Shown in pieces: positions 2,784-28,164 of a stretch of DNA of 64,000 bases; position 1 is the stretch's first letter; the number at the start of each line of letters is the position of its first letter. This stretch comes from Plantimonas leprariae (GTDB lineage Bacteria; Pseudomonadota; Alphaproteobacteria; Rhizobiales; Rhizobiaceae): contig NZ_VZDO01000006.1 of NCBI RefSeq assembly GCF_008802405.1, positions 1-64,000 of the forward strand, written 5' to 3'. Both the position numbers and the translations under genes were made by a program. The notes below the pieces were generated by a model. It saw only the letters and a program-made list of their open reading frames with translations. It did no database searches and had not been told where the DNA came from.

Positions 2784-2799
2784 GATGGCGGAGAAGAAG
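2784..2799. repeat. Left attachment-site repeat (att core copy)
   Basis: GATGGCGGAGAAGAAG, identical to 28149-28164. It is the reverse complement of the last part of tRNA-Ser (TTCTTCTCC, discriminator G, CCA). Identity ends immediately outside the 16 bp on both sides, so this is a recombination core, not a longer duplication. Confidence 0.88.
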
Positions 2800-2905
2800 T
2801 CCGCCTCCGCCTAATCCATGCCGTTCCGAGCCATGCCGGGATTACGTGGGAATAGTCGGGATTTCGGCGGCTTAGCGTCTGGACTATTCCGCACCGTTCC
2901 TTACA

Positions 2906-2921
2906 AATCGTCAAAACGATT
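2906..2921. promoter_or_regulatory. Palindrome between att core and integrase gene
   Basis: AATCGT-CAAA-ACGATT, a perfect 6-bp inverted repeat in an AT-rich patch, 30 bp upstream of the integrase start. It is a candidate operator for the integrase promoter or an arm-type/excisionase site. No experimental class can be assigned. Confidence 0.35.
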
Positions 2922-2950
2922 GTGCGTAAGCCAGCGCACCGAGGTTCTGG

Positions 2951-4186
2951 ATGCGTTCCGCCAACAAGCTGTCTGCCCTTGCGGTGACGAAGGCGACGAA
3001 GCCCGGCCTCTATGGTGACGGCCACGGGCTGTACCTCCAGATCGCCATCGGCGGCTCGAAGTCATGGCTGTTCCGCTTCCAGCGTGACGGCCGAGCCCGC
3101 AAGATGGGCCTCGGCCCGATCCATACCGTCTCGCTCGCCATGGCGCGTGAGAAGGCCCTGGAGTGCCGGCGTAAGCTACTGGACGGCATCGATCCCATCG
3201 ACCAGCGGCAGGAAGCCGAACAGGAACGCAAGCTCGCCAAGCTGAAGGGCATGTCGTTTCGCGAGGCCGCCGAACGATACATCGCCGCGAACAAGGCTGG
3301 CTGGAAAAACGCGAAGCATGCGGCGCAGTGGACGGCGACGCTGGAAGCTTACGCCTTCCCGGTGTTCGGCACGATCGATGTCGCAGCCGTCGATGTGGGG
3401 CTTGTGCTGAAGGTGCTGGAGCCGATCTGGACGACGAAAGCCGAGACCGCCAGCCGCGTGCGGGGCCGCATCGAAAGCGTCTTGGATTGGGCGACGGCGC
3501 GCAAGTACCGGCAGGGCGAGAACCCGGCGCGGTGGAAGGGCCACCTCGACCATATCCTCCCTGCCCGCTCGAAGGTGCAGAAGGTCAAGCACCATGCCGC
3601 CCTGCCCTATGCCGAGGTTGCCGGCTTCGTTTCCGAGCTGCGGCAGGCGGACGGCATCGGTGCTCGCGCGCTGGAGTTCGCCATTCTGACGGCTGGCCGC
3701 ACCGGCGAGGTGGTCGGCGCTCGTTGGGACGAGTTCGACATCGAAGCGAAACTCTGGATCGTGCCGGCGGAGCGGATGAAGGCTAGTCGCCAACATCGCG
3801 TTCCGTTGTCGGATAGCGCGCTCGCCATCCTCGACGCTCTCCCCCGTGAGAAGGACAACCCGCATGTGTTCATCGGCGATCGACGCGGCCGGCCGCTGTC
3901 GAACATGGCGTTGTTGATGACGCTGCGGCGGATGGAACGCGGCGAGATCACCGCGCACGGGTTCCGCTCGACGTTCCGCGATTGGGCGGCCGAGACGACG
4001 GCCTATCCAAGCGACATGGTGGAGATGGCGCTGGCGCATACGGTCGGGAACAAGGTGGAAGCCGCCTACCGGCGCGGCGACCTGTTCGAGAAGCGGCGCC
4101 GGCTGATGGCCGATTGGGCAACGTACTGCGGCAGGCCGACGCCGGCCGGCGAGGTGGTGAAACTGCGGGGCAAGGCCGATGCCTAG
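2951..4186 (+). CDS. int: P4-type tyrosine recombinase / integrase
   Basis: 411 aa. The N-terminal DUF4102-type arm-binding domain (residues 1-90, with GLYGDGHGLYLQ) is followed by a core-binding SAM-like domain and the catalytic domain. Catalytic residues are visible: Arg250 (GRTGEV), a hairpin Lys near 277, His336 and Arg339 (HGFRS), His363 (AHTVGN) and the nucleophile Tyr373 (AYRRGD). Length and organisation fit the tRNA-targeting P4/phi-R73 integrases. The ATG has GAGG 8 nt upstream. It reads inward from the left att repeat, while the tRNA target lies at the far end, so after integration the gene is separated from the tRNA. Its stop overlaps the next gene by 8 nt. Confidence 0.95.
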   Translation: MRSANKLSALAVTKATKPGLYGDGHGLYLQIAIGGSKSWLFRFQRDGRARKMGLGPIHTVSLAMAREKALECRRKLLDGIDPIDQRQEAEQERKLAKLKGMSFREAAERYIAANKAGWKNAKHAAQWTATLEAYAFPVFGTIDVAAVDVGLVLKVLEPIWTTKAETASRVRGRIESVLDWATARKYRQGENPARWKGHLDHILPARSKVQKVKHHAALPYAEVAGFVSELRQADGIGARALEFAILTAGRTGEVVGARWDEFDIEAKLWIVPAERMKASRQHRVPLSDSALAILDALPREKDNPHVFIGDRRGRPLSNMALLMTLRRMERGEITAHGFRSTFRDWAAETTAYPSDMVEMALAHTVGNKVEAAYRRGDLFEKRRRLMADWATYCGRPTPAGEVVKLRGKADA

Positions 4187-5216
4187 AGACGAGGTTTGGC
4201 CACTGGTTCGAGCAGTCGCATGGGGATGTTGGCGCGATGCGGGCATGGTGGAGCGCTTCATTGCCGCCCGCCAGAATGACTGGAGCGCAGTTGATCGATC
4301 GTCGCTCGTAAACGCCGTGGATTTTGATCGCGGACCGTCACAGCGGGCTCGGCCGGTATCGGAAGTTGTCTCGCTGTTTCGAGAGTGGCTTTGCCACGGG
4401 GAACTGGTTGCGACGGGGATAGGCGAACAACACGCGGATGCCATTGAGATCCCCTCCAGCTTTTGGTGCGGTTCAATGACCTTCGAGGAGCTTCGTCACG
4501 TCCGCTCGCTCGATACAGGCGAACGGTTCGAATGGGTCCGGTTATCTGCCGAAGCGGTCACAAGCCTGTTTGCGGACGGGGCGGTGCAACCGCTGACAAT
4601 GGACAGCGTGCATAAGTACGATCCGTCATCCTTCAATCGTAGCTATTGGCCGCTGAACGCTGCCGTTCAGTGGTTAGGTCAGCTTGATGCGAACCTTAGC
4701 AATGGCGAAATTGAAGGCGCTCTTCTCGATGCGTTCGAAGCTGGAACTATCACCGTTACCGGCCAGCGTGCCGACACCGATGCGCGCCAAGAAATACCGG
4801 CGTCAGAATGGGGCAACCTCGTTTTCGCCTTCGATGCCGACTTGGAATATCGAGCGGATCGGAAGGGTAGCATTCAGCCAGAGTGGCTGAAATTGCGAGT
4901 TCCGCGCGACGCAGTACGAGCGCTGGTCCCGCTCGCCCTATCTAATGGCGCCTCGCACGCAGAATTGGAGCGACTTACTGAGCGTCCGTTCGGAACCGGC
5001 ATGGCTGGCCGGCCATCAATGAGTGCGCCGATCTTAGAGCAGGAGTTGAGGAGGCGAGCCAATACCGACGAACTGGAAGCGACGTTGGGAAAGCAAGTGG
5101 AAGCGTTGTTAGACTGGTTGCCACTTGCACACATAGGCTATCCAGTCCCGAAGCAGGGAACGTGCGAAAACAATCTTCGCAGTCTTTACTGGGAGCTCAA
5201 GGGTGCACGAAACTAG
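4179..5216 (+). CDS. Hypothetical protein coupled to the integrase
   Basis: 345 aa; begins 8 nt before the integrase stop, so it is translationally coupled. Not a named family. The N-terminal two-thirds are mixed alpha/beta with many Trp residues. The C-terminus has the order RPSMSAPILEQELRRRA, then a coiled helix, then a W-L-P-x-A-H-I-G-Y-P-V-P-K segment and an ENNLRSLYWELK end. A comparable C-terminus is common in uncharacterised proteins beside integrases in Proteobacteria and may bind DNA (inference). Base composition is markedly less GC-rich than in its neighbours, suggesting separate ancestry. A role in integration or in host interaction is possible. Confidence 0.7.
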   Translation: MPRDEVWPLVRAVAWGCWRDAGMVERFIAARQNDWSAVDRSSLVNAVDFDRGPSQRARPVSEVVSLFREWLCHGELVATGIGEQHADAIEIPSSFWCGSMTFEELRHVRSLDTGERFEWVRLSAEAVTSLFADGAVQPLTMDSVHKYDPSSFNRSYWPLNAAVQWLGQLDANLSNGEIEGALLDAFEAGTITVTGQRADTDARQEIPASEWGNLVFAFDADLEYRADRKGSIQPEWLKLRVPRDAVRALVPLALSNGASHAELERLTERPFGTGMAGRPSMSAPILEQELRRRANTDELEATLGKQVEALLDWLPLAHIGYPVPKQGTCENNLRSLYWELKGARN

Positions 5217-5330
5217 ACCCACGAAATAAACGACGCACCCAATTTCATGGGCAGTTTTCGTGGTTTGAACGTCAGCCCATTCTAAGCGCGGCCAAGCAAT
5301 TCCGCTCTGGCGTACTTGGAAAGGTATCCG

Positions 5331-5543
5331 ATGGTTCAGACCATCCTTCGGCGATACGACGTAGAGCGTGTCACCGGTCTCTGCCGCAGCGCGATCTACC
5401 AGCAGGTCGCCGCCGGCAAGTTCCCGAAGCCCCTTCGCCTCAGCGCTCAGTCGGTAGGCTGGCTCGAAAGCGAAATCGTCGAGTGGCAGAAGGCTCGCAT
5501 CGCCGAGCGTGACGGCACCTCCGAGATGGAGGCGGCTGCATAG
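5331..5543 (+). CDS. AlpA-family DNA-binding regulator / excisionase-like
   Basis: 70 aa. It has the MerR-like winged-helix layout of AlpA proteins: ILRRYDVERVTGLCRSAIYQ, then a GKFPKPLRLSAQSVGWLESEI wing and a helix with WQKAR. ATG 5331 is chosen over an upstream TTG because GGAAAGG lies 6 nt before it. In P4-like elements AlpA activates integrase transcription or acts as directionality factor. Here it starts the left replication operon (5331-9571), whose genes all read rightwards with tiny gaps or overlaps. Confidence 0.88.
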   Translation: MVQTILRRYDVERVTGLCRSAIYQQVAAGKFPKPLRLSAQSVGWLESEIVEWQKARIAERDGTSEMEAAA

Positions 5544-27476: not shown

Positions 27477-27683
27477 TCACCGACTGACAACTTCGTATTC
27501 GTATTCCCGTCCAAATCCGTCGCGCGCTGATGCCTTGCCAGTGGCGATGAGGTCGGCTTCGATCTCGCGCTCTGGCATTCGTCCGACGACGTATTGGAGC
27601 CATTCATCGAGAAAGACCGTCCCGACAAACCGCCGCGGGCCGCCCGTACAGTCAAAGATGCGCATCTGAAACGGCTCACCCAT
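27477..27683 (-). CDS. Small hypothetical protein, 68 aa
   Basis: MRIFDCTGGPRRFVGTVFLD, then a helix with EREIEADLIATGKA and a basic, aromatic end YEYEVVSR. ATG 27665 (MRIF) has the better ribosome-site spacing (GGGTGAG). Family unknown. Confidence 0.5.
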   Translation of the reverse strand: MGEPFQMRIFDCTGGPRRFVGTVFLDEWLQYVVGRMPEREIEADLIATGKASARDGFGREYEYEVVSR

Positions 27684-28003
27684 AGCCGCCTAAGTACCAC
27701 TGAACATTTCCACCCGCTCATCTTTCCTTAAGGAATGGTTTACGCGATCGGCAGAATGACGGCCATCCGAAGCGACGCGTCATACGCGTTGCCGTTGCCC
27801 TCAAGCTACTCGGCGAGCAGATGCCGTTCCATCTGGAGCGCAAGCGCGATGTCGATGAGGGCGTTGATGCGGTTGAGGCCGTGCAAGCGTCCCTTTTCAC
27901 GAAAGCCGCCTTAGTGCGACTCTGGATCAAATCACGGATAGTCACGTCGCACGCTGGGTTCTGTCAGTTTCGTCAGGTCGCCAGCCAATCGCTTTCGCGC
28001 ATT

Positions 28004-28030
28004 TTGGCACTATTGGCACTAACGGCACTG
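28004..28030. repeat. Three tandem 9-bp repeats near the right attachment site
   Basis: TTGGCACTA, TTGGCACTA, ACGGCACTG, head to tail, ending about 120 bp from the att core. Spacing is nearly one helical turn. They are candidate integrase arm-type or excisionase sites. Confidence 0.4.
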
Positions 28031-28112
28031 TGCGGGCGTGGCTTTCTCGCCACCTTCAGCAAGCGGTACGCGCGTTGTGCTTGGGATTGTGCGCAACGCT
28101 AAACGACCGTGC

Positions 28113-28131
28113 GTTATCGTATTGCGATAAC
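28113..28131. promoter_or_regulatory. Palindrome beside the right att core
   Basis: GTTATCG-TATTG-CGATAAC, perfect 7-bp arms, 17 bp from the att core. Its counterpart at the left end is AATCGT-CAAA-ACGATT (2906-2921). Possible recombination-accessory or terminator function. Confidence 0.4.
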
Positions 28132-28148
28132 AGAACAATTTGACGTTT

Positions 28149-28164
28149 GATGGCGGAGAAGAAG
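28149..28164. repeat. Right attachment-site repeat (att core in tRNA-Ser)
   Basis: Perfect copy of 2784-2799. It covers the last 14 nt of the tRNA gene (including CCA) plus 2 bp beyond, so recombination leaves the tRNA intact. Confidence 0.88.

Follow-up and report, generated by a model that had tools for sequence, protein, structure and literature searches.

How does a genomic element spread when it encodes phage delivery proteins and no recognisable capsid? The question is raised by positions 2784-28164 of the DNA analyzed here (the window, the first 64,000 nucleotides of contig NZ_VZDO01000006.1, our contig C35), from Plantimonas leprariae, an Aureimonas-group bacterium of the Hyphomicrobiales whose genome (G000, 4.77 Mb) is assembled into 39 contigs. 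On sequence evidence this element of 25.4 kb is a real, boundary-defined member of a family that lacks recognisable capsid genes and carries phage delivery genes. It is probably a helper-dependent phage satellite which supplies packaging specificity and delivery proteins. That reading rests on its boundaries, gene content, family conservation, absence of capsid genes, low dN/dS and ejection-gene homology, from which we infer excision, replication, packaging, the incorporation of ejection proteins, the identity and podovirus nature of the helper, and the mechanism of transfer.

The element is bounded at both ends by a 16-bp exact repeat, GATGGCGGAGAAGAAG. One copy of this attachment-site (att) repeat lies distal to the tRNA (2784-2799) and the other (28149-28164) at the 3' end of the integration target, a tRNA-Ser(GCU) gene on the minus strand (28151-28240) at the right end of the element. 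A 15-mer inside the repeat has two exact copies in the whole genome, both of them element ends; with up to two mismatches allowed there are three matches in the window against a shuffle expectation of 0.19. A chemotaxis receptor gene (213-2165) flanks the element to the left and livH to the right. In the genus-mate Aureimonas psammosilenae (G514) the order is livH, tRNA-Ser(GCU), a 52-kb insert, a 66-bp att copy and the chemotaxis receptor gene, which matches the flanks of the window element and indicates that both are chromosomal and that the site is used by different elements. The insert (G514:C12:265111-317314; L089, L090, L123, L124) contains a siphovirus-type prophage, complete-looking by gene list. 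The comparison of occupied and empty sites proposed in an earlier note on this DNA thus yielded the first kind only: the A. psammosilenae site is occupied, three other Aureimonas genomes have the tRNA away from livH, and a truly empty site was not found. The att repeats, the tRNA and Pfam matches do bear out that note's description of a 25.4-kb tRNA-Ser element with an integrase, AlpA and XRE regulators and a primase-helicase.

Three genes of the element are related to phage packaging and delivery (genes lie on the plus strand unless marked minus). The first encodes a hydrolase-type injection protein (12447-14414), which has a weak, below-cut-off match to PF07486 (E 0.0027) and is 86% identical to its counterpart in a sister element on contig C34 of the same genome. 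The second encodes a DNA-ejection protein (14424-16148) with matches to phrog_21712 (E 1.6e-25) and phrog_5880 (E 4.6e-15) and 30% identity to a structural protein of phage RHph_N3_2; a PDB sequence search gave no match. We take the label of phrog_21712, "major head protein", to be wrong for this gene because the RHph_N3_2 homologue sits between a putative injection protein and a SleB-type hydrolase and the annotated major capsid protein (MCP) of that phage is another gene. The matching gene of Phage C72C1 is annotated as a DNA ejection protein. We call the RHph_N3_2-like phages podovirus-type from their ejection genes, their records giving only Caudoviricetes. The third gene encodes a small-terminase (TerS)-like protein (17431-17850) that matches phrog_641 over residues 24-70 (E 2.6e-6) and phrog_15261 (E 2.1e-16), and that is 88% (C34), about 64-65% (A. 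psammosilenae) and 58% identical (Antarcticirhabdus aurantiaca, G394, a family-mate of the host) in three sisters. This gene looks two-part, with an N-half common to prophages and a C-half common to other loci: in the TerS search the prophages G303, G330 and P12 match the N-half only and several other genomes the C-half only. In the sister element P5 a TerS of the N-half type directly precedes the large terminase (TerL) gene.

Scans of the element proteins (30 with Pfam and 20 with PHROGs, several small open reading frames [ORFs] lying outside them) contain no portal, capsid, TerL, tail or relaxase family. The earlier note had likewise seen a small-terminase-like gene, a cell-wall hydrolase and an ejection-type protein and no recognised TerL, portal, capsid, tail or conjugation gene; the three are present, the hydrolase by a weak match, and the absences hold in these scans and, for capsid, portal and TerL, with virion queries also. 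One such comparison took 15 podovirus-type loci (some partial, with fewer portals than loci) and set 207 of their proteins, each of 100 aa or more, against 15 elements. The ejection region was matched in 14 of the 15, TerL in one (P5) and a 244-aa accessory protein in two (C34 and G305), and no portal, MCP, scaffold or tail protein was matched in any of them; in the window element the ejection proteins are the sole match. As a positive control, the 25 most widely shared query proteins, including annotated or likely MCPs, match 4-7 other phage loci. A second comparison ran 42 virion queries against ten elements. Four of these queries, derived from P5 and C12, matched themselves, and the other 38, which include siphovirus, gene-transfer-agent and L184 portals and capsids and for which the between-phage controls worked, gave four matches: ejection proteins in the window element (W) and P24, TerL in P5 and, over 34 residues, an injection-type protein in G433. 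Besides the window element, five of the 15 were reached via the ejection family itself and nine by TerS, primase or TerL searches; among those nine, eight have ejection genes, the exception being C12. The hydrolase and ejection genes, whose presence the earlier note had recorded as one feature among others, form the virion-derived component that varies least across the family.

The gene content of the element recurs as a capsid-less unit, a possibility the earlier note had raised, across several genomes and next to different tRNA genes. Sister elements occur elsewhere in the P. leprariae genome and in A. psammosilenae, Antarcticirhabdus and related genomes, adjoining tRNA genes for Ser, Thr, Leu or Phe, and hold subsets of a set made up of the integrase, AlpA, the replication gene, a 51-aa ORF, the TerS-like gene, XRE and Tat-signal proteins. 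The C34 element (29.4 kb, at tRNA-Thr) was first seen via its ejection protein and again via TerS. By tblastn, a sister at the start of A. psammosilenae contig 1 has an integrase 84% identical to that of the window element, and the A. aurantiaca sister an ejection protein 34% identical. The A. psammosilenae elements adjoin tRNA-Ser(GGA), tRNA-Thr(CGU) and tRNA-Ser(UGA). A TerS profile search of 150 relatives gave matches in 13 genomes, gene maps being read for all but eight of them (G354, G376, G333, G347, G358, G372, G027 and G295), and led to the A. psammosilenae elements at tRNA-Thr(CGU) and tRNA-Ser(UGA), the contig piece P24, an element of G305 at tRNA-Ser(CGA), and, at 127 kb of contig C4 in the P. 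leprariae genome, a remnant whose small ORFs are split. At the tRNA-Thr sites the att repeat is 45 bp long in C34 and, with one mismatch, 48 bp long in P1b, and that of G305 measures 14 bp; the G433 element (16.5 kb, found via the primase, with a phrog_5880 gene) has no att repeat of at least 12 bp at the adjoining tRNA-Leu. An 18-kb element of G398, found via the ejection protein, adjoins tRNA-Phe. C34 (joined L044 and L045, 20372-21025), G305 (L078:14165-14797) and the viral contig L144 have a protein in common that is presumably SRAP/HMCES-like, judging from its MCNLYS start.

Two more elements lie in the P. leprariae genome. That on C12, which extends to the contig end, has TerL, a relative of the 51-aa ORF, a short tape measure, a neck protein and, judged by eye, a relative of the helix-turn-helix (HTH) protein described below. 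The other, at about 77-90 kb of C4 and with unmapped ends, encodes a DUF3987-like protein of 911 aa, three ejection-type proteins, a lysozyme-type protein and, by eye, an AlpA-like protein. As far as the contigs reach, the genome holds four capsid-less elements and one remnant. The primase was found in 12 genomes, and its neighbourhood was read in P. leprariae, G394, G514, G433, G441, G322 and G516 (G522, G413, G423, G477 and G505 were left out). Matches to the primase and to phrog_5880 lie within about 8 kb of each other on G477:C34 and G505:C1, which are probably further family members.

Across 394 genomes, phrog_5880 occurs in 56 and the portal family phrog_1216 in 32, and the two lie within about 21 kb of each other, in a prophage-like setting, at 13 places in 12 genomes. 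Another 19 phrog_5880 places comprise seven complete-looking podovirus-type prophages (N3_2 structural genes were matched in three, and the other four are judged from gene order and size only), five capsid-less elements, in one of which (G534) the ejection gene is truncated, two remnants and five unsettled places (L245, L248, L253, L256 and L262). No relative of the P5-type ejection protein was found in the viral-contig search.

The packaging (TerS-like) and hydrolase genes appear to evolve under purifying selection, as judged by comparison with C34: dN/dS is 0.24 for the hydrolase, 0.18 for TerS, 0.16 for a 103-aa ORF and 0.06 for a 68-aa ORF, and the 51-aa ORF and the ORF at 21502 also fall within 0.06-0.24. 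Values are 0.40-0.56 for three other ORFs and 0.89, at high divergence, for Tat-signal protein 1. These values bear on one alternative, a decayed prophage: a podovirus-like phage would have integrated and then shed the genes for its head and tail, the rest persisting as debris. In its favour, the ejection genes and TerS belong among the virion and packaging genes that such phages carry, remnants are present both in P. leprariae (C4:127 kb) and elsewhere (L257, L259), and the G534 ejection gene is truncated. However, a similar capsid-less set occurs with different integrases, tRNA neighbours and ejection proteins, and the ORFs of the window element are intact, its dN/dS values low and its boundaries clean; portal, MCP, scaffold and tail genes, by which a complete or defective podovirus prophage would be recognised, are not found in it. 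Because the capsid-less set recurs, only ejection-module proteins match and the genes appear to be under purifying selection, we favour a satellite and regard a decayed prophage as unlikely.

The ejection proteins themselves appear to be modular. Those of C34 and P24 align at 52% identity over 956 residues and have different N-termini: the C34 N-terminus is common to the window element (60% over 45 residues) and the viral contigs L136 and L137, and that of P24 to N3_2 and G303. Segments of about 45 aa at the N-terminus are exchanged between otherwise unrelated ejection bodies and are present in phage loci as well, and we infer that this segment would fit the ejection protein to a given virion. 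Such swapping, as in phages, also argues against a domesticated island, in which the host would keep the phage-derived hydrolase and ejection proteins for another use and movement would be rare and by other means. The sensory and metabolic cargo, the large size and the fact that no helper was found are consistent with domestication, but the integrase, AlpA, replication and TerS-like genes are kept and conserved alongside, and elements adjoin several tRNA genes within one genome, which argues for mobility; we consider this explanation quite improbable. That the element is an integrative mobilisable element moving by conjugation with phage genes as passengers is very improbable indeed, for while some islands that lack phage genes, such as G322 and G516, also combine an integrase with DUF3987, the Pfam scans of 30 proteins detected neither a relaxase nor a conjugation family, whether of a mobilisable or a conjugative element, and phage packaging and ejection genes belong to the conserved set.

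As a helper-dependent satellite, the element would be excised from tRNA-Ser(GCU) by its integrase together with AlpA and replicated by its Toprim/DUF3987 protein, and its TerS-like protein would tag the DNA so that it is packaged in procapsids of an RHph_N3_2/G303-type podovirus. The helper would provide TerL, portal, capsid and tail, and the hydrolase and ejection proteins encoded by the element would, as in such phages, be carried inside the particle and pass into the next cell along with the DNA. The element would then control packaging specificity and delivery and borrow the shell, with the sensory and esterase genes riding along. P5 offers one link to such phages, its TerL being 71% identical to that of the podovirus-type prophage G303. 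A related backbone may also carry a full head module: locus L184 (IMGVR_UViG_2831495660_000003, 16 kb) has an integrase, a primase 63% identical to that of the window element, a portal (phrog_12, E 9e-94), a protease-MCP (phrog_10, E 1.5e-85), a connector, TerS and TerL and, judged by eye, a Tat-signal-like protein; no tail gene was seen in this trimmed viral record, and tail genes may lie beyond the cut. We tentatively propose, at somewhat less than even chances, that this Hyphomicrobiales satellite family brings whatever exits the virion together with the DNA (ejection proteins or, in the siphovirus-type sister C12, a short tape measure) and borrows what stays outside, the N-terminal segments swapped between satellites and phages fitting each satellite to the portal of its helper; given L184, the borrowed part would be a replaceable cassette.

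Several observations weigh against the satellite interpretation. The satellite is deduced from gene content, and every absence call likewise comes from sequence, both AlphaFold models being of low confidence. Its size, 25-30 kb, exceeds that of the known satellite families. The hydrolase gene of the window element has no match in 50,697 phage records and matches none of the 207 podovirus-type proteins. The TerS assignment derives solely from the N-half, and the C-half resembles other Rhizobiales DNA-binding proteins that we take to be DUF5681-like. G322 and G516 have an integrase and primase without an ejection gene, and the 7-kb contig G441 has no ejection gene either, so the family is not defined by its replication genes alone. 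The choice of five among the 15 elements, for phrog_5880 without a nearby portal, makes the pattern partly selected; remnants (C4:127 kb, G398 C61 and G662) show that decay does occur; and low dN/dS may in part predate the loss of capsid genes. Finally, the portal phrog_1216 was not found in the P. leprariae genome or the other five Aureimonas genomes, nor was a P5-type TerL found in the former; the helper is therefore perhaps an incoming phage. The G303 portal was not found in eight genomes, a search set without a positive genome, and the phrog_2 search for TerL was non-exhaustive: the genes of P5 and prophage P12 escaped it. In the P. leprariae genome TerL was found in two places, element C12 and a gene-transfer-agent-like cluster on C36, and the gene transfer agent was set aside as helper for lack of evidence. 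By gene order this cluster (about 36,770-51,360; L121-L122) and one in A. psammosilenae (G514:C12, about 176,000-191,300; L126-L127) have TerL, portal, capsid and tail genes, and the TerL of the former matches PF03237 and phrog_2. A 12.9-kb A. psammosilenae contig (G514:C21, L125) has low-GC phage genes that look foreign there and is possibly assembly contamination.

The other genes of the element fall into backbone and cargo. The tyrosine integrase (2951-4186) matches PF22022, PF13356, PF00589 and phrog_1 (E 1.5e-46). It is followed by a 345-aa ORF (4179-5216), not mentioned in the earlier note, that has no counterpart in the sister elements compared and no Pfam, PHROG, PADLOC, NCBIfam, plasmid or PDB-sequence match; its AlphaFold (AF2) model (mean pLDDT 38) was too poor for a fold search. 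The AlpA-type regulator (5316-5543, start probably 5331; PF05930, E 3.3e-18) is 71% identical in two A. psammosilenae elements and 26% in C34. The Toprim and DUF3987 primase-helicase (6470-8659; PF13148, E 1.4e-85) is 67% identical in A. aurantiaca and 73% in A. psammosilenae (C-terminal part), and the HTH protein (9251-9571; phrog_66, E 6.3e-4) is conserved in sisters, at 35-40% in G394, G514 and C34. Just upstream of the virion-part genes, the 51-aa ORF (11724-11879) is 86-90% identical in C34, G514 and G394 and 54% in G398, with a 74% nucleotide match in C12. A small ORF between the ejection and TerS-like genes (16409-16936) is 49-51% identical and the 68-aa ORF (17200-17406) 96% identical in C34. 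An XRE repressor-like gene (21199-21426, minus; PF13560, PF01381) is followed by a conserved backbone ORF (21502-21816; 84% in C34, about 45-48% in A. psammosilenae elements). The two Tat-exported proteins, which the earlier note had counted as cargo, have matches in sisters and belong instead to the conserved backbone: Tat-signal protein 1 (22038-22481) is 46% identical over 83 residues in C34 and has matches in P1b and P5, and Tat-signal protein 2 (22475-23299), whose AlphaFold model (mean pLDDT 50) was too poor for a fold search, is 44% identical in C34 and 36% in G514. The 103-aa backbone ORF (23299-23610) is 91% identical in C34, 76% in G514 and 34% in a third sister.

The two-component, PAS and esterase genes are, on these comparisons, cargo: a PAS-HWE histidine kinase (9579-11105, minus; PF07536, PF08447), receiver domain proteins at 11136-11528 (minus) and 24363-24770 (both PF00072), a PAS protein (25260-25784; PF08447) and a PHB-depolymerase-type esterase (25802-26950, minus; PF10503, E 2e-27) that was absent from the earlier list. 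The earlier view of the sensory genes as cargo agrees with the finding that the kinase and receivers have no match at E 1e-3 among the predicted genes of the C34, G514 and G394 elements, in which the PAS gene has a single 44-residue match, in C34; tblastn matches of the HWE, receiver and PAS domains to sisters were considered up to E 1e-20. PADLOC found no defence gene among 10 element proteins. C34 has sensory cargo of its own, a chemotaxis receptor gene (joined L044 and L045, 30926-32869) 56% identical to the receptor gene that flanks the window element on its left. Some 17 kb away from the TerS remnant, C4 encodes a PAS protein (L074:3412-3912, at about 110,400) with 60% identity to that of the window. 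Outside the element, the window has a gene pair (44579-45246) that we take to encode a PIN-like toxin and a Phd-like antitoxin.

Among known systems, the Gram-negative phage-inducible chromosomal islands (PICIs), such as EcCICFT073, are similar in having an integrase, AlpA, a primase, sometimes TerS, att flanks and no capsid genes (available portion of PMC6092414). Like them, the window element has a site-specific integrase with att repeats, an AlpA-type regulator and its own primase/replication gene; unlike them, it has a DUF3987-type replication gene, virion structural genes of the ejection and hydrolase types, a Tat-signal backbone and sensory cargo, and measures 25.4 kb against a PICI average of about 9.5 kb, family averages of satellites ranging from 9.5 to 18 kb (PMC10803314, from the part accessible). 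RHph_N3_2 and prophage G303 share the ejection gene and, in one sister, TerL, and their portal, capsid, scaffold and tail genes were not found in the elements. Capsid-forming PICIs have a portal, protease, capsid, TerS and TerL and no tail. They too are satellites with part of a virion (named in the available part of PMC11389934), and the window element has delivery proteins in place of their portal and MCP, such a set being seen only in the related L184. Mulch and Flayer also have some virion machinery; theirs comprises encapsidation genes without key replication genes, the reverse of the situation here (PMC10690885, accessible portion). No psu, delta or sid name of P4-like satellites occurs among the Pfam and PHROG matches, no direct P4-protein search having been made. 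PICMI, PLE and P4-like satellites have different gene sets and are much smaller. They share the dependence on helper capsids (PMC10803314 and PMC11389934, in the parts available). EcCIMP1 is a PICI with the helper vB_EcoP_Kapi1, and the main text of PMC11773190, as far as accessible, does not contain the words ejection or injection. In the open-access literature searched there was no report of satellites carrying ejection or injection proteins or a tape measure, or of such satellites in Rhizobiales; the term ejection protein(s) turned up in two papers, in both cases solely among the references. If our interpretation is correct, this family is a little-known kind of phage parasite, with the helper's shell and its own delivery parts, and adds satellites, several of the elements lying in one genome, to an order of plant- and soil-associated bacteria. 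Control of the delivery end of the virion could change the cells or membrane barriers that the DNA can pass, and the direct question is whether satellite ejection proteins are built into helper particles. Described satellites redirect, shrink or build capsids (in part after the accessible portion of PMC11389934); our comparison suggests that a delivery-protein satellite differs from them in that it also encodes a hydrolase and ejection proteins.

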